Origin: an uncultured Sphingomonas sp. | Lineage (GTDB): Bacteria; Pseudomonadota; Alphaproteobacteria; Sphingomonadales; Sphingomonadaceae | DNA length: 63,490 bases | Reading direction: 5' to 3' | Assembly (NCBI GenBank): GCA_913775315.1 | Contig: CAJYIX010000011.1 | Coordinates: 1-63,490 of the forward strand | Translations under genes and position numbers: made by a program | Notes under the pieces: model-generated | Database searches by the model: none | What the model was told of the DNA's origin: nothing | What the model saw: only the letters and a program-made list of their open reading frames with translations | Shown: positions 15,955 through 23,170 of the stretch, one piece after another | How positions within the stretch are numbered: position 1 is the first letter of the stretch | Layout: the number at the start of each line of letters is the position of its first letter

Positions 15955-17124
15955 ATGCCGCTGCCCCTCCTGCTCGCGCTCGCCCTTTCACAGGAAGCTG
16001 CGCCTCTGCCGCCCGCCGAACCCGTTGCCGGCGCGCGCGTCGTGGTCGCGGGGGACAAGGTGGTCGCCGCACAGGCGGCGGGGCTGGCCGACTTGGCAGC
16101 CGGACGCCGTGCGACCCCCGACGATCCGGTCCGCGTCGCCTCGATCTCGAAGCTGGTCGTCGCGATCGGGGTGATGCGGTTGGTCGAGGCGGGGAAGCTC
16201 GACCTGGACGCGGATGTATCCACGCTGCTCGGCTGGCGGCTGCGGCACCCGCAATTCCCGGACACGCCGATCACGCTGCGGCTGCTGCTCTCGCACCGAT
16301 CGGGGCTGGCCGACGGCATCGACTATGTGTTGCCGCTCGATGCCGACCTGCGCACCGCGCTCGCCGATCGGAAGGCGTGGGGGGCGCAGGCGCCGGGCGG
16401 CTATTTCCGCTACGCCAATATCGGCTTCCCGGTCGTCGCATCGGTGATGGAGCGCGCGACGGGCGAACGTTTCGACCGGCTGATGGATCGGCTGGTGCTG
16501 AAACCGCTCGGCATCGCCGGCTGCTATCAATGGGACGCGTGCGACGCCGCCATCGCGGCGCGCGCCGTGGTGCTGGTCGAGCCGGACGGCACGCCGATCC
16601 GCGACGACAATCGCGGCATCAAGCCGGCCTGCTCGGTCACCCCCGCGCGCAACGGATCGTGTGCATTGACCGGATGGGAAGCGGGGCGCAACGGCGCGAT
16701 CTTCTCGCCGCAGGGGGGCCTGCGCATCTCGGCACAGGGGCTGGCGAAGATCGGGCGGCTGATCGCGGGGGGCGGCAGCGTGGATGGCGTGCGGCTGCTC
16801 TCGCCCGCCTCGGTGAAGGCGATGACGACCCCCGCCTGGACTTATGACGGCAAGAATGGCGAGACCGAGGGCGGGCTCTATTGCCGCTATGGCCTTGGCG
16901 TCATGTTCACCGGCAGCGGGATCGACGGTTGCCCCGACGACCTGTTCGGCGACGGTCGCCCGCGTATGGGCCATGCGGGGGAGGCGTATCGACTGCGCTC
17001 GGGCCTGTGGGTCGGGGCGGACGACGGCGTGACCGCCTATTGGGCGACGGGGATCGCGCAGGACGCAGCCCTCGGCACCTCGGGCTATTCGGCGATCGAG
17101 GAACGACTGGCGCGCGGCAAATGA
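15955..17124 (+). CDS. Secreted serine hydrolase of the beta-lactamase/DD-peptidase family
   Basis: 389 residues. A short signal peptide (MPLPLLLALALSQEAA) suggests export. The catalytic set of class C beta-lactamase-like hydrolases is visible: S63-x-x-K66 in 'VASISKLV' and the Tyr-x-Asn motif Y153-A-N155 in 'YFRYANIGF'. A 'LLSHRSGL' segment typical of the family lies between them. Such enzymes act as DD-peptidases, D-aminopeptidases or esterases. It is the first gene of six genes whose junctions all overlap by 4 bases (ATGA with dgcN-like), so a role in freeing D-amino acids or peptides from murein is inferred. The 165-base gap to aqpZ must contain the operon promoter; I see no clear -35/-10 pair. 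Confidence 0.85.
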   Translation: MPLPLLLALALSQEAAPLPPAEPVAGARVVVAGDKVVAAQAAGLADLAAGRRATPDDPVRVASISKLVVAIGVMRLVEAGKLDLDADVSTLLGWRLRHPQFPDTPITLRLLLSHRSGLADGIDYVLPLDADLRTALADRKAWGAQAPGGYFRYANIGFPVVASVMERATGERFDRLMDRLVLKPLGIAGCYQWDACDAAIAARAVVLVEPDGTPIRDDNRGIKPACSVTPARNGSCALTGWEAGRNGAIFSPQGGLRISAQGLAKIGRLIAGGGSVDGVRLLSPASVKAMTTPAWTYDGKNGETEGGLYCRYGLGVMFTGSGIDGCPDDLFGDGRPRMGHAGEAYRLRSGLWVGADDGVTAYWATGIAQDAALGTSGYSAIEERLARGK

Positions 17125-18137
17125 GCGCGATCCCGACGCCGTACCTGCTCTATCTGGGTGCCGCGACCGACTTTCTGGGGCTGAAGACCGCGCGCGGGCT
17201 GGCGACGTTCGCACCCGAAAAGTGCGTCGGCGAGTGGCGGCACGACGAATGTCCGTACTCGGTCGACCTCGACCGGGTGACGCTGGACGAGGGGATCGCG
17301 CGGGGTGCGCGGACGCTGGTGATCGGCATCGCCAATCCGGGCGGGCGGATGGATGCGCGTGTCGTCGCCGATGCCGTCGCGGCGGCAAGGGCGGGGCTGA
17401 ACGTCGCCGCCGGCCTTCACCAGCGGCTGCGTGGCGAGCCCGATCTGGTCGCGGCGGCGGAAGCGGCGGGCGTGCAGCTCTGCGACGTGCGCGATCCGCC
17501 TGCCGATCTGCCGGTCGGCAACGGCCGCCCGCGTGCCGGGCGGCGGCTGCTGACCGTCGGCACCGACTGTTCGGTGGGCAAGATGTACGCGACGCTGGCG
17601 CTGACGCGGGCGATGCAGGCGCGCGGGCACCACGCCGATTTCCGCGCGACGGGGCAGACGGGCATCCTCGTCGCCGGCAGCGGCATCGCGATCGACGCGG
17701 TGGTCGCCGACTTCATCGCCGGCGCGGTCGAGACGCTGTCGCCGCCGCGCGAGGCTGGCGGCTGGGATCTGATCGAGGGACAGGGCTCGCTTTTCCACCC
17801 GAGCTTCGCAGGCGTGTCGACGGGGCTGCTCCACGGCGCGCAGGCTGATGCGCTGGTGCTGTGCCACGAGGTGGGGCGCGAGACCTTGCGCGGGCTTGCC
17901 CACTATCGCGTGCCGGGGCTGGCCGAGTGCCTTGACGCCAACCTTTGCGTGGCACGGCTGACCTCGCCGGGCGTGCGGGCGGTGGGCGTATGTCTCAACA
18001 CCGCGTCGCTGGACGAAGCGGCGGCGCGGGCGGCGTGTGCGGCGGTCGAGGCCGAACTCGGCCTGCCTGCGACCGACCCCTATCGCTTCGGCGCCGAGCC
18101 GATTGTCGCGGAGATCGAACGCTGCTTCGCCGCCTGA
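17121..18137 (+). CDS. dgcN: DgcN-like protein (DUF1611), probable D-glutamate N-acetyltransferase
   Basis: 338 residues, cytoplasmic. The C-terminal half carries a P-loop-like motif 'TVGTDCSVGKMYATLALT' followed by 'DFRATGQTGILVAGSGIAID' and 'WDLIEGQGSLFHPSFAGVS', the hallmarks of DUF1611. The N-terminal half is a Rossmann-like domain with 'KTARGLATFAPE' and 'RTLVIGIANPGGRMD'. Characterised members (DgcN) acetylate D-glutamate on the amino group, and their gene is paired with DgcA, as here. The ATG overlaps the upstream stop (ATGA) and the stop overlaps dgcA (CTGA). The identification as DgcN rests on family and gene pairing, so a different D-amino acid or dipeptide could be the true substrate. 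Confidence 0.8.
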   Translation: MSAIPTPYLLYLGAATDFLGLKTARGLATFAPEKCVGEWRHDECPYSVDLDRVTLDEGIARGARTLVIGIANPGGRMDARVVADAVAAARAGLNVAAGLHQRLRGEPDLVAAAEAAGVQLCDVRDPPADLPVGNGRPRAGRRLLTVGTDCSVGKMYATLALTRAMQARGHHADFRATGQTGILVAGSGIAIDAVVADFIAGAVETLSPPREAGGWDLIEGQGSLFHPSFAGVSTGLLHGAQADALVLCHEVGRETLRGLAHYRVPGLAECLDANLCVARLTSPGVRAVGVCLNTASLDEAAARAACAAVEAELGLPATDPYRFGAEPIVAEIERCFAA

Positions 18138-19087
18138 CCGCCGAGGCGCGCGCCTTTCCGCTACGCGCGCCGTTCCGCATCGCGCGCGGCGTGAAGACGG
18201 TGGCCGAGGTCGTGGAGGTGCGGATCGAAGAAGCCGGTTTCATCGGACGCGGTGAGGGCGTGCCCTATCCGCGCTATGGCGAGAGCGTCGCGAGCGCGCT
18301 GGCGGCGATCGAGGCGGCGCGCGGCGCGGTGGAGGCGGGGGCGGATTGCCGCGATCTCCTGTCGCTGATGCCCGCGGGTGCAGCGCGCAATGTCGTCGAT
18401 GCGGCGCTCTGGGACCTCGACGTCAAGCTCGGCCGCGCGTCACTACCCCCGGCGATGGAAACCGAGACGGCGGTGACGGTGGGCATCGACACGCCGGTTG
18501 CGATGCACGCCGCCGCACTCGCGCTCGGCCCGGTGCCGCTGGTCAAGGTCAAGGTTGACGGTGAGGCCGTGGCCGATCGCGTTGCCGCCGTCCGCAGCGC
18601 GCTGCCCGCCGCGCGGATGATCGTGGACGCCAATGAAAGCTGGACGCTGGGCACGCTCCGCGCCGCCCTGCCCGCGCTGGTCGAGGCGCGGATCGATCTG
18701 GTCGAACAGCCGCTGCCCGCCGATGCCGACGACGCGCTGGTGGGGATCGACGCGCCGTTCGCGATCGCCGCCGACGAATCCGCGCATGGGATCGGCGACC
18801 TCGACCGGCTGCGCGGCCGCTACAGCCACATCAACATCAAGCTCGACAAGACCGGCGGGCTGACCGCGGCGCTCGCGCTCGCCGATGCCGCCGAACGCGT
18901 GGGGATGGGGGTGATGCTCGGCTGTATGGTGGCGAGCTCGCTCGGTATCGCCCCGGCGATCCGACTGGCGGGGCGGGCGTCGTTTGTCGATCTCGACGGG
19001 CCATGGTGGCTGGCGGCGGATCGCACGGGCGGGGTGCGGATCGAGCAGGGCGTGTTGACCCCGCCCGTGCCGGGCTTCTGGGCATGA
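18134..19087 (+). CDS. dgcA: DgcA-like enolase-superfamily epimerase, apparently from a CTG start
   Basis: 317 residues. An N-terminal capping domain ('FPLRAPFRIARGVKTVAEVV') is followed by a barrel with the full epimerase set: K138-V-K140, D165 in 'IVDANESW', E191 in 'DLVEQP', D214 in 'IAADES' and K236 in 'INIKLDKTGG'. This is the arrangement of L-Ala-D/L-Glu dipeptide epimerases and of DgcA, which converts N-acetyl-D-Glu to N-acetyl-L-Glu. No ATG, GTG or TTG exists between the upstream stop region and the first strand; CTG at 18134-18136 overlaps the dgcN stop as CTGA and gives a family-typical N-terminus. The next gene begins in an ATGA overlap. Confidence 0.82.
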   Translation: MTAEARAFPLRAPFRIARGVKTVAEVVEVRIEEAGFIGRGEGVPYPRYGESVASALAAIEAARGAVEAGADCRDLLSLMPAGAARNVVDAALWDLDVKLGRASLPPAMETETAVTVGIDTPVAMHAAALALGPVPLVKVKVDGEAVADRVAAVRSALPAARMIVDANESWTLGTLRAALPALVEARIDLVEQPLPADADDALVGIDAPFAIAADESAHGIGDLDRLRGRYSHINIKLDKTGGLTAALALADAAERVGMGVMLGCMVASSLGIAPAIRLAGRASFVDLDGPWWLAADRTGGVRIEQGVLTPPVPGFWA

Positions 19088-20613
19088 GGGTCGCGATCCT
19101 CGCCGCGCTGGCGCTGCTGGGCGCTGCGCCGGTGTCCGCCGACCTGCTGATCCGCGGCGGCACCGTCGTCACCGGCCAGCGCGCGCCGTTCGTCGGCGAC
19201 GTGGCGGTGCGCGGTGATCGGATCGTCGCGGTCGGTGCGCGCCTGTCGATGCGCGCCGCCCGGACTGTCGAGGCGAAGGGGCTGATCGTCGCGCCGGGCT
19301 TCATCGACCCGCACACGCATGTCGAGGCGATGCTGCTCGGCCCCGACGCACGCGCGCGGCTGGTCGATCGGTTCCTGATGCAGGGGGTGACGACCGCCTT
19401 CATCGGCAACGACGGGGGCGGCGCGGTCGACGTGAAGGCGGTGCTGGCGAGCGCGGCAGCGCGGCCGGTCGCCATCAACTACGCTACCTATGTCGGGTTC
19501 GGCAGCATCCGCAGCGCGGTGCTGGGGGACGCCGATCGCGCGCCGTCCCCCGCCGAGAGTGCGCGGATGAAAGCCCTCGCCGCCCGCGCGATGTGCGACG
19601 GCGCGCTCGGCCTGTCGAGCGGACTGTTCTATGCGCCGCAGCGCTTCGCGAGGACCGGGGAGGTCGCCGCCGTCGCGGCGGAGGCGGGCCGACGCGGCGG
19701 CTTCTACGATACGCATCTGCGCGACGAATCCTCCTATTCGATCGGCCTCGAGGCCGCGGTCGAGGAGGCGCTGGCGATCGGCCGCGCATCGGGCGCGGCG
19801 GTGCACATCGCGCATATCAAGGCACTTGGCGCCGATGTCGAAGGCCGCGCCCCCGCGGTGATCGCCCGGATCGAGGCGGCGCGGGCGAAGGGCCAGCGCG
19901 TCACCGCCGATCAATATCCATGGGACGCCTCGGGCACCAGTCTCGTCGCCGCGCTGGTGCCGGGGTGGTCGCAGGCCGACGGGCGCGCGGCGATGCTCGC
20001 GCGGCTGGGCGATGCGCGGGCGATAGCCGAGATGCGCGAAAATCTGCGGCGGCGGGGCGGGGCGGACAAGCTCCTCCTTACCAGGGGGCCGCTGCGCGGG
20101 CGGACGCTGGCGCAGATCGCGGCGGGTGGCGATCCGGTTGCCGCCGCGATCCGCATCATTCGGGGCGAGGATCCGGCAGTTGCGAACTTCAACCAGTCGG
20201 AGCGCGATATCCGCGCCTTCATGACCCGCCCCTGGGTGATGACGGGCAGCGACGCCTCGACCGGCCACCCGCGCAGCTTCGGCAGCTTCGCGCGCAAATA
20301 TGCGGTCTATGTGCGCGAGCGGCACGTGCTCGACCTGTCGAGCTTCGTCGCGCGCAGTGCGACGCTGACCGCCGATACGTTCGGCCTCAAGGATCGGGGG
20401 CGGATTGCGACGGGTGCGTTCGCCGACCTCGTGCTGTTCGATCCCGCCACCTATGCCGCCCGCGCGACCTATTCTGATCCCGAGCGGACGGCGGCTGGGG
20501 TGCGAATGGTGCTGGTCAACGGCCGCGTCGCGGTCGAGGGCGGGCGGCTGACCGGCGTCGCGGCAGGGCGGGCCTTGCCGCGTAAGCCTGCCGAGGGGAC
20601 TTGCCCGGCATGA
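19084..20613 (+). CDS. Periplasmic N-acyl-D-amino-acid deacylase (D-aminoacylase family)
   Basis: 509 residues. A signal peptide (VAILAALALLGAAPVSA) precedes the amidohydrolase start 'DLLIRGGTVV'. Metal ligands are seen as H-T-H in 'FIDPHTHVEAM', then 'GALGLSSGLFYAPQ', 'YDTHLRDES', 'AVHIAHIKALG' and the catalytic Asp of 'VMTGSDAST'. The closing 'DRGRIATGAFADLVLFDP' is the family C-terminus. It would hydrolyse N-acyl-D-amino acids outside the cytoplasm, producing free D-amino acids for the symporter encoded next. Fourth gene of the overlapping operon (ATGA on both sides). That the enzyme is exported, while many family members are cytoplasmic, argues that its substrates come from outside. Confidence 0.85.
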   Translation: MRVAILAALALLGAAPVSADLLIRGGTVVTGQRAPFVGDVAVRGDRIVAVGARLSMRAARTVEAKGLIVAPGFIDPHTHVEAMLLGPDARARLVDRFLMQGVTTAFIGNDGGGAVDVKAVLASAAARPVAINYATYVGFGSIRSAVLGDADRAPSPAESARMKALAARAMCDGALGLSSGLFYAPQRFARTGEVAAVAAEAGRRGGFYDTHLRDESSYSIGLEAAVEEALAIGRASGAAVHIAHIKALGADVEGRAPAVIARIEAARAKGQRVTADQYPWDASGTSLVAALVPGWSQADGRAAMLARLGDARAIAEMRENLRRRGGADKLLLTRGPLRGRTLAQIAAGGDPVAAAIRIIRGEDPAVANFNQSERDIRAFMTRPWVMTGSDASTGHPRSFGSFARKYAVYVRERHVLDLSSFVARSATLTADTFGLKDRGRIATGAFADLVLFDPATYAARATYSDPERTAAGVRMVLVNGRVAVEGGRLTGVAAGRALPRKPAEGTCPA

Positions 20614-21821
20614 TTGCCCGCTGGCTCGCCATTCCGCTCTGGCTGCGCGTGCTCGGCGGGCTGCTACTGGGCGTGCTGCTGGGTCTGGTCTGGCCCGCCG
20701 CCGCGCCGAAGGTCGGGCTGGTCGGCGAGTGGTTCGTGCGCGCGATCCGGATGCTCGTCGCGCCGATCGTGCTGGTGACGATCGCCGCGGGCATCGCCGG
20801 CATGGCCGAACCCGCGAAGCTCGGACGGCTGGGACTACGTACGATCGGGTTGTTCGCTGCAACGACGCTGGCGGCAGTGGCGATCGGCATGGCCGTTGCG
20901 GTGCTCGTCCGGCCGGGCGACGGCGCGCCGCTGGCCGGTGTCGCGGCACAGGCACTGGGCGAACCGCGGAGCCTCTACGACACCGCCGCAGGCATCGTCC
21001 CGCTCAACATCGTCGAGGCGCTGGGCAAGGGCGACATGCTCGCGCTCATCTTCACCGCGATCCTGATCGGCGTCGGTACCGTCGCGGCGGGCGAGGCGGG
21101 GCGGCCGTTCGCGCGCGGGCTCCAGTCTCTGTCCGCAGTGCTGCTGTCGGTCGTACGGCTGGTGATGGAGGCGACGCCGTTCGGGGTGTTCGCGCTGACC
21201 GCCAATGCCGTGGCGTCGAGCGGGGTCGAGGTCTTCGCGCGCATCGGCTGGCTGGCACTTGCGGTCGTCATCGGGTCGGCGGCGCAGATGGCGCTGGTCC
21301 ATGCGCCCTTGCTGGCCGTCGTTGCGCGACGGTCGCCGCTCCGCTTCTGGCGAGACAGTGTCGAGGCGCTGGCGATCGCCTTTTCCACCGCGTCGAGTTC
21401 GGCGGTGCTGCCCGTTGCGATCCGGCTGGCGGAGACGCGGCACCGGATCGCGCGCCACGTCGCGCAGACGGTGCTGCCGCTCGGCGCGTCGATCGGCAAG
21501 GACGGGACGGCGATGTATGTCGGCCTCTTGAGCGTCTTCAGCCTGCAGGCGCTCGGCCACCCGATCGCGCCTGCCGAATGGGGCGTGATCCTCGCTACGG
21601 CCACGCTGGCGGCATTCGGGACCGCGCCGGTGCCGTCGGCCTCCCTCTTCATGCTCGCGGCGGTGCTGGCGGCGGTCGGCGTGGGCGCGGGGGATACCGC
21701 GCTGATCGTCGGGCTGGTGTTGCCGTTCGACCGCCTGCTCGACATGACGCGGACGGTGCCGAGCGCGTCGGCCAACCTCACTGTAGCGTCGTGTGTCGAT
21801 CGGCTGGAGCATCGGGAATGA
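20610..21821 (+). CDS. Dicarboxylate/amino-acid:cation symporter (DAACS family, GltP/DctA-like)
   Basis: 403 residues, eight membrane helices plus re-entrant loops. Family motifs are the serine-rich 'AFSTASSSAVLPVAI' (first re-entrant loop), 'LGASIGKDGTAMYVG' in place of the more usual NMDGTA, and 'PFDRLLDMTRT' containing the Asp and Arg residues that bind the substrate carboxyl and amino groups. The N in the 'NMDGT' sodium-binding motif is a Gly-Lys here, which might signal proton coupling or a changed cation site. An acidic amino acid such as D-Glu or D-Asp is the natural candidate, given the flanking dgcN/dgcA. The start ATG overlaps the deacylase stop; a TTG nine bases upstream is a less likely alternative. 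Confidence 0.88.
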   Translation: MIARWLAIPLWLRVLGGLLLGVLLGLVWPAAAPKVGLVGEWFVRAIRMLVAPIVLVTIAAGIAGMAEPAKLGRLGLRTIGLFAATTLAAVAIGMAVAVLVRPGDGAPLAGVAAQALGEPRSLYDTAAGIVPLNIVEALGKGDMLALIFTAILIGVGTVAAGEAGRPFARGLQSLSAVLLSVVRLVMEATPFGVFALTANAVASSGVEVFARIGWLALAVVIGSAAQMALVHAPLLAVVARRSPLRFWRDSVEALAIAFSTASSSAVLPVAIRLAETRHRIARHVAQTVLPLGASIGKDGTAMYVGLLSVFSLQALGHPIAPAEWGVILATATLAAFGTAPVPSASLFMLAAVLAAVGVGAGDTALIVGLVLPFDRLLDMTRTVPSASANLTVASCVDRLEHRE

Positions 21822-23170
21822 AGCGAGCCGTCCTACTGCTCCTCGCGATTGCCGTACCAGCACGCGCCGATGGCCCGGTGCTCGCCGATCGCGTGCGGGG
21901 GACCTTGGCGGCGCCCGATCTTGCCGGGACGCGATGGGGGCTGCTCGTCGTCGACGAGGCGGGGCGTCCGCTGGTGGCGATCGATCCGGACGCGCGCTTC
22001 CTCCCCGCCTCGAACAGCAAGCTGCCGAGCGTGCTGGCCGACATGGCCGCGCCCGCGCCCGCCGAGGGGACGGGCGTCGCGATCGAGGGCGAGGACGTGG
22101 TGCTCATCGGCGCGGGCGATCCGTGGCTGTCGGGGGCGAGCGACTGCGTGCGCGACTGCCTGTCGACGCTCGCCGACGCCGTCGCCGCGCGCACCGGCCG
22201 CGTACGCGACGTCATCGGCGACGACCGGCGCTGGGTGGACGAACGCTGGGGGCAGGGGTGGAACTGGAACAACCTGCCCACGCGATCGGGTGCGGCGGTG
22301 TCGGCCTTGAGCCTTGATGAGAATATCGTCGCGGTGACGGTGATGCCCGATGGCAAGGTCGCGGAGCCGACCGGCTGGTACCGGATCGAGGATCGGGTCG
22401 AGCCGGGGGCGGCAACCTCGCTCGGCGTGGAGCGCCTGCCCGGCGAGCGGACGCTGGTGGTGCGCGGCACGGTTGCGGGGCCGGCGCCGGTGACGATCGC
22501 GCACCCCGTCGACGATCCCGCCGCCTATGCCGCACACCGCTTCGCCGTGTTGCTGCGCGCGCGGGGGGTAAAGGTGGGCGGCGAGGCAAAGGCGCGGCAT
22601 CGGCGGCCGGGCGAGGCTGCGGCCATGCTGCCCCAAGCCATCGCCCGGCTGACGCCGCCGCCGCTGACCGAAACCTGGGCGCGGACGCTGAAGGCCAGCC
22701 AGAACCTGTTCGCCGAGATGCTGCTACGACGCGACGTGCCCGAGGGGACGGCGGCGGCTGGCCTCGCCCGCTACGACACGCTGTTCGCAGCCGCGGGGGC
22801 GCCGCGCCGCGGATGGGACTTCGCCGACGGGTCGGGCATGTCGAGCTACAACCGCCTCTCCCCGCGCGCATCGGTGGCATTGCTGCGCTGGGCGGCGGGT
22901 CAGCCCTTTGCTGCGACGTTCAAGGGATCGCTGCCGATCGCGGGCGTCGACGGCACGCTCGCCGCGCGGTTCAAGGGGACGGCGCTGGCGGGCAAGCTAT
23001 TTGCCAAGACCGGTTCGCTGAACGGTGCGTCGGCGCTGTCGGGCTATCTGACGGCGAAGAGCGGGCGGACGCTGACCTTCGCCTTCTTCGCCAACGACAT
23101 GCCCAGCGCAGCGCCGCCGGTCACGCCGGTGATGGATCGCGTGTTGGTCGAGATCGCCGCGGCGAATTAG
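21818..23170 (+). CDS. dacB: D-alanyl-D-alanine carboxypeptidase/endopeptidase (PBP4 type)
   Basis: 450 residues. A signal peptide (AVLLLLAIAVPARA) leads to a DD-peptidase with the active-site S65-N-S-K68 in 'LPASNSKLPS', the second motif in 'FADGSGMSSYNRLSP', and KTG in 'LFAKTGSLNGA'. Insertion domain II ('ALSLDENIVAVTV') is typical for class C PBP4. Such enzymes trim terminal D-Ala and cut 4-3 cross-links in murein. Being last in the overlapping D-amino-acid operon, it could supply D-Ala and peptides to the hydrolases and the symporter. It ends 7 bases before the convergent clpS stop. Confidence 0.9.
   Translation: MKRAVLLLLAIAVPARADGPVLADRVRGTLAAPDLAGTRWGLLVVDEAGRPLVAIDPDARFLPASNSKLPSVLADMAAPAPAEGTGVAIEGEDVVLIGAGDPWLSGASDCVRDCLSTLADAVAARTGRVRDVIGDDRRWVDERWGQGWNWNNLPTRSGAAVSALSLDENIVAVTVMPDGKVAEPTGWYRIEDRVEPGAATSLGVERLPGERTLVVRGTVAGPAPVTIAHPVDDPAAYAAHRFAVLLRARGVKVGGEAKARHRRPGEAAAMLPQAIARLTPPPLTETWARTLKASQNLFAEMLLRRDVPEGTAAAGLARYDTLFAAAGAPRRGWDFADGSGMSSYNRLSPRASVALLRWAAGQPFAATFKGSLPIAGVDGTLAARFKGTALAGKLFAKTGSLNGASALSGYLTAKSGRTLTFAFFANDMPSAAPPVTPVMDRVLVEIAAAN

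Follow-up and report, generated by a model that had tools for sequence, protein, structure and literature searches.

The DgcN-DgcA pathway of D-glutamate (D-Glu) utilization was reportedly founded in the work of Yu et al. 2023 (ISME J 17:537). Murein peptide salvage in Escherichia coli uses the L-Ala-D/L-Glu epimerase YcjG. In three further papers, DgcN and DgcA are named EC 2.3.1.312 and EC 5.1.1.25 (PMC11747546), the dgcN route is termed an irreversible racemisation pathway (PMC12363236) and DgcN-DgcA is placed between D-Glu and L-Glu (PMC10845958). Here, we analyze a 63,490-nucleotide stretch of DNA (the window; contig CAJYIX010000011.1) from the 3.25 Mb genome of an uncultured Sphingomonas sp., in which dgcN and dgcA are part of a putative operon of six genes. 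On balance, we favor the reading that this operon scavenges D-amino acids, D-Glu above all, and is built on the known Dgc pathway.

As in the described DgcN-DgcA pathway, the two genes are adjacent and of the same families, and a LysR gene lies beside them in most sphingomonad relatives. The window differs from it by lacking LysR and by adding an exported D-aminoacylase (DAA), a carrier of the SDF family, PBP4 and a serine hydrolase (SH). No description of a Dgc route united with an exported D-aminoacylase, an SDF carrier and PBP4 was found in the open-licence literature searched. The DgcN/DgcA pathway itself is known; what seems to be new is that it is joined by a transporter and by hydrolases predicted to be exported.

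Gene content of the locus

The original prediction, made from the letters and open reading frames of the window, described six co-directional genes that fill positions 15955-23170, and this layout was confirmed. The operon is flanked by a divergent aqpZ gene at one end and a convergent clpS gene at the other. Its features are as follows.

15955..17124, + strand: SH, serine hydrolase of the beta-lactamase/S12 fold, predicted exported (PF00144; SISK and YAN motifs; hydrophobic N-terminus)
17121..18137, + strand: DgcN, predicted cytoplasmic D-glutamate N-acetyltransferase (NF041892, 487.5 bits; best PDB chain 7xrj)
18110..18137, + strand: GGAG (18110-18113), probable CTG start of dgcA (18122) and the last 16 nt of dgcN, which dgcA would overlap
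18122..19087, + strand: DgcA, N-acetyl-D-glutamate racemase-like protein of the enolase family (NF042940, 391.3 bits; start placed by alignment with relatives)
19084..20613, + strand: DAA, predicted exported D-aminoacylase with Asp replacing the metal Cys (family profiles PF07969/PF01979, fold and residues)
20610..21821, + strand: SDF-family carrier, probably for acidic D-amino acids, with altered cation-site residues (PF00375; motifs; best PDB match an aspartate transporter)
21818..23170, + strand: PBP4/DacB-type D-Ala-D-Ala carboxypeptidase/endopeptidase, predicted exported (TIGR00666, 156.6 bits; SNSK, SQN and KTG motifs)

The families proposed earlier for these genes were recovered by PF00144, NF041892, PF07969/PF01979, PF00375 and TIGR00666, with DgcA just below the cutoff of NF042940. 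Overlaps of 4 nt had been predicted at all five junctions. Four of them are indeed ATGA overlaps (17121, 19084, 20610 and 21818), but the DgcN/DgcA junction reads CTGA at 18134 instead of ATGA, and its overlap is likely 16 nt long.

DgcN and DgcA

The predicted identity of the two Dgc enzymes is supported by profile scores. DgcN exceeds the cutoff of 480 bits of the NCBIfam model NF041892. DgcA falls just under the cutoff of 400 bits of NF042940, whereas all seven relatives tested from related clusters score above it. The protein also carries the KxK motif, the second Lys and the DLDGP motif of the enolase-family site.

The best solved relatives of DgcA are 1jpd, the E. coli L-Ala-D/L-Glu epimerase, and 4gfi, with the DLDGP motif in common. 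DgcA is thus homologous to the epimerase of E. coli murein salvage, and could be such an epimerase acting on murein dipeptides, with DgcN in another role. However, the window protein reaches only 294.7 bits against the epimerase model NF011708 (cutoff 343), a cutoff missed by all eight proteins scored (the window DgcA and the seven relatives), and the DgcA model outscores the epimerase model by about 97 bits. Moreover, dipeptides are not known as substrates of SDF carriers. An ordinary dipeptide epimerase was therefore rejected, and we regard this explanation as very improbable. The window would differ from the E. coli system by the use of free D-Glu instead of a dipeptide, and by the addition of DgcN.

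In DgcN, a GTDCSVGK stretch resembles a nucleotide-binding P-loop, although the protein is named an acetyltransferase; Pfam terms the domain the DUF1611_C P-loop domain. Residues G147, D149, C150, G153 and K154 are invariant across 15 sequences.

The start of dgcA was placed by comparison with relatives. No ATG, GTG or TTG is present in the dgcA frame from 18036 to 18134, and the nearest GTG, at 18035, lies far upstream within dgcN. In 24 sphingomonad loci dgcA adjoins dgcN; of the codons aligned 12 nt upstream of CTG 18134, 20 are ATG and two are GTG, while in one locus (L088) the ATG is situated further upstream. CTG occupies the aligned position in the closest relative, Sphingomonas spermidinifaciens (L069), as it does in the window at 18122, where GGAG (18110-18113) precedes the codon by 8 nt. 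Because both the aligned starts of the relatives and the GGAG ahead favor it, CTG 18122 is the likely start of dgcA; the alternative CTG at 18134, which would give an overlap of 4 nt, was rejected on the same grounds.

Neighborhoods of dgcN in other genomes

We compared the best 80 of 587 DgcN loci, within 10 kb, a sample that leans to close relatives and in which taxon groups were assigned from record titles. Several loci stop at contig ends, so that some absences may be missing sequence. Weak matches were dropped, with limits set at less than 45% identity for LysR, SH and DAA, less than 38% for SDF, less than 100 bits for the TonB receptor, 45% or less for the PBP4B-like hydrolase and 150 bits or less for GltS. 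The nearest named relative among the matches listed is S. spermidinifaciens 9NM-10, with 88% identity in DgcN.

The 25 sphingomonad loci contained DgcA (24), LysR (21), DAA (20), PBP4 (17) and SDF (16), as well as a PBP4B-like hydrolase (13), an AmpG-like carrier (12), a penicillin-acylase-like protein (12), a TonB receptor (12) and SH (6). DgcA, LysR, DAA, SDF and the TonB receptor were each found in all four loci of the Hyphomonas/Henriciella/Phenylobacterium type. The 12 Xanthomonadales loci showed GltS in 10, DgcA and DAA in six each, the TonB receptor in five and LysR in two; DgcA was not beside DgcN in the other six. In the remaining 39 loci, DgcA was present in 34, and neither DAA nor SDF was found.

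Conservation of the six-gene order in relatives had been put forward as a check, and in this respect the prediction was not supported: the exact order was found in only one of the 25 sphingomonad loci, that of S. spermidinifaciens. These loci show 23 label arrangements, a number inflated by cut-short loci and by differing flank content. The six-gene order was therefore discarded as a conserved unit, whereas the same genes reappear around dgcN, differently arranged, in both the sphingomonad and the Hyphomonas/Phenylobacterium-type loci. Thus, the genes remain together through rearrangement. The original prediction also gains from the Xanthomonadales, where the sodium/glutamate symporter GltS fills the carrier slot, and from the sphingomonad loci, roughly half of which include an AmpG-family carrier and a PBP4B-like hydrolase. 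The genome of the window has such a pair, an AmpG-like carrier (59%) next to a PBP4B-like hydrolase (71%), on contig 17 (L177:10265-12711); in many relatives this pair lies inside the cluster.

Linkage was also counted in nine genomes of the same genus with a full-length DgcN of at least 60% identity, excluding the window's own genome and one with a partial DgcN match (G018, 60%). DAA lies within 20 kb of dgcN in eight of the nine, as does PBP4 in eight of nine. By chance, about 1% would be expected for each gene if it were present once in a 4-Mb genome. The linkage of DAA and PBP4 to dgcN exceeds this, although the nine loci share descent.

A Pfam scan of ten genes from seven other DgcN loci identified further neighbors, including parts of a peptide ABC transporter (Enterobacter), a D-amino-acid transaminase (Rhodobacter) and a gamma-glutamyltranspeptidase (Frateuria). 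In Dyella sp. (L103:10010-13784), dgcA is missing, and downstream of dgcN come a gene of the beta-lactamase fold and the 3-hydroxy-D-aspartate aldolase BhcC, which scores over its cutoff. Sphingomonas sp. CROZ-RG-20F-R02-07 (L107:5401-10987) has dgcN twice, as divergent genes, and dgcA was not found in its stretch.

The exported D-aminoacylase

The predicted structure of DAA (pLDDT 90.7) resembles most closely solved D-aminoacylases and the related deacetylase OngB, which make up its nine closest Foldseek chains (E about 1e-40); the next fold follows at an E-value of about 1e-19. The residues were compared with the key residues of D-aminoacylases given in section 10 of PMC12017989. Like AfDam (1m7j), the N-acyl-D-Glu deacylase BbDam (3gip) and OngB, DAA retains the fold, both metal-binding His, the catalytic Asp and, for the substrate, Tyr, Lys and Arg. 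It differs from these enzymes in that the metal Cys is replaced by Asp, at the site of Asp110, in all 31 cluster DAA proteins, so that the fold and catalytic Asp of the subtype V D-aminoacylases are present but not their Cys/His/His metal site. Mapped by eye over a weak local alignment, Gly takes the place of one substrate Ser, and Leu that of the Arg which holds the D-Glu side chain in BbDam; the enzyme for hydrophobic D-amino acids likewise has Leu there. With these three replacements DAA may act on other substrates than BbDam does, and a plain BbDam-type D-Glu deacylase was rejected.

DAA is predicted to be exported, which AfDam, BbDam and OngB are not. Strongly hydrophobic N-termini were found in 27 of 31 cluster DAA proteins, as compared to 2 of 68 DgcA and 1 of 15 DgcN proteins. 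This result was obtained with a 32-residue measure, which separates the groups; a 45-residue version was discarded since 32 of the 68 DgcA controls passed. Two of the four cluster DAA proteins below the hydrophobicity line carry a lipobox, from a scan with 11 matches of which at least one (L074) looks fortuitous. The comparison of N-termini supports the division into exported and cytoplasmic proteins that had been proposed.

The SDF carrier

The carrier belongs to the SDF family (PF00375, 321.2 bits, cutoff 27.9), and its best PDB match is an aspartate transporter. It falls well below the GltP equivalog (151.3 bits, cutoff 638) and the DctA equivalog (180.9 bits, cutoff 513). The DMTRT stretch at the substrate site is kept as in GltPh- and DctA-type carriers. 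In contrast to these, GKDG replaces NMDG at the cation site, and within NVTGD the Asn has become Ser and the Asp has become Asn. Each of the 16 sphingomonad cluster rows shares these replacements with the window, whereas the usual motifs are retained in the three rows of the Hyphomonas/Henriciella type and the Phenylobacterium row falls in between; this alignment omits weaker rows as well as proteins that lack a gene call. Judging from these motifs, the ion coupling of the carrier may differ from the usual, and the sphingomonad cluster carriers are possibly a sodium-independent subgroup. Of the acidic amino-acid symporter of the original prediction, the SDF family stands, but the label symporter is uncertain because the usual cation-site residues have been lost.

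PBP4, the serine hydrolase and a possible own-wall recycling

PBP4 scores above the TIGR00666 cutoff of 107.8 bits and contains all three motifs listed above. It is the sole TIGR00666 match in the genome, just as DgcA has a single match there, and may do housekeeping work. The genome also encodes MurI, so that D-Glu synthesis has its own enzyme. These two findings fit a role in recycling of the cell's own wall, in which PBP4 and SH would act as wall enzymes, with DgcN and DgcA clearing D-Glu that is produced internally and released by turnover. However, DgcN is an accessory protein, as fits a nutrient route, being found in 26 of 61 genomes searched and in 14 of 37 within the genus (the window's own included), and an exported deacylase with an importer is better suited to external material. 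Own-wall recycling is in our view improbable.

No NCBIfam cutoff was reached by SH, including those of S12 DD-peptidases such as AmpH. The fold neighbors of its model (pLDDT 78) are a mixture of DD-peptidases, D-specific hydrolases and esterases. It is unlikely that the operon serves beta-lactam catabolism.

The outer module without DgcN

Eight genomes of the same genus contain DAA (E <= 1e-60) but no DgcN match. In seven of these that were inspected, SDF adjoins DAA in five, and DAA, PBP4, a PBP4B-like gene and an AmpG-like carrier are grouped in four (G006, G016, G021 and G028), three of them with SDF. The outer module therefore does not need DgcN/DgcA. Genome G010 has DgcN, and its DAA is found far away from it, together with an acylase, a receptor, a PBP4B-like gene and an AmpG-like carrier.

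This persistence of DAA suggests another explanation, namely that the outer module scavenges not murein but, more generally, N-acyl-D-amino acids or acylated D-peptides, including lipopeptides, with DgcN/DgcA as an optional addition for accompanying D-Glu. The Leu at the BbDam Arg position is consistent with this, as are the penicillin-acylase-like genes and TonB receptors, each in 12 of the 25 sphingomonad loci. On the other hand, PBP4, the PBP4B-like hydrolase and the AmpG-like carrier (17, 13 and 12 loci, respectively) point to wall fragments, and a similarity search gave neither an acylase nor a TonB receptor beside the window operon. We consider a general scavenger unlikely, although it is the most serious of the alternatives.

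Proposed mechanism

From the genes, their families, their predicted locations and their repeated linkage in other genomes, we infer the substrates, the order of the steps, co-transcription and murein as the source. In the D-amino-acid scavenging that we favor, PBP4, SH and the exported DAA would trim wall-type peptides or N-acyl-D-amino acids to free D-amino acid outside the inner membrane, and the SDF carrier would import the product. In the cytoplasm, DgcN would acetylate D-Glu and DgcA would convert N-acetyl-D-Glu to N-acetyl-L-Glu, which would enter the arginine route or be deacetylated to L-Glu. The genome contains argB and argJ, whose products could tie N-acetyl-L-Glu to arginine metabolism. 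A futile cycle would be avoided because the deacylase is exported and the acetyltransferase cytoplasmic.

Several observations weigh against this reading. In the window itself, DgcA scores below the cutoff of its own model, SH points to no single function, and PBP4, as the sole TIGR00666 match in the genome, may be a housekeeping enzyme. The cluster LysR is absent from the genome (best match 32%). Neither a sigma-70 promoter nor an intrinsic terminator was detected at the operon, a weak test at a GC content of 69%. Finally, DAA has an altered metal site, lacks the Arg for D-Glu, and occurs without DgcN in eight genomes. The murein and D-amino-acid salvage pathway of the original prediction is thus upheld in part, with respect to the Dgc enzymes, the predicted locations and the linkage; the three points on DAA speak against a strictly murein or D-Glu reading.

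More tentatively, and with some doubt, we suggest that the operon represents a modular D-amino-acid utilization locus kept across the Sphingomonadales, Hyphomonas/Phenylobacterium-type bacteria and Xanthomonadales. Its parts would be an exported DAA with Asp for Cys as a new type of metal site, a glutamate carrier that can be exchanged (either GltS or an SDF protein of an unusual kind that is possibly sodium-independent) and DgcN/DgcA inside, and these would often be joined by a receptor in the outer membrane, an Ntn acylase and a carrier of the AmpG type. One acyl group would be removed outside and a new one added inside, with compartment alone separating the two opposed reactions.

Bacterial walls hold a large amount of nitrogen and carbon in the form of D-Glu, which is used only slowly. 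If the proposed role of the operon is true, it would name the outer half of the Dgc route, with the proteins for release and for import of the D-amino acid. It would also extend the Dgc route to many sphingomonads and Xanthomonadales, and supply a list of candidate genes and enzymes.

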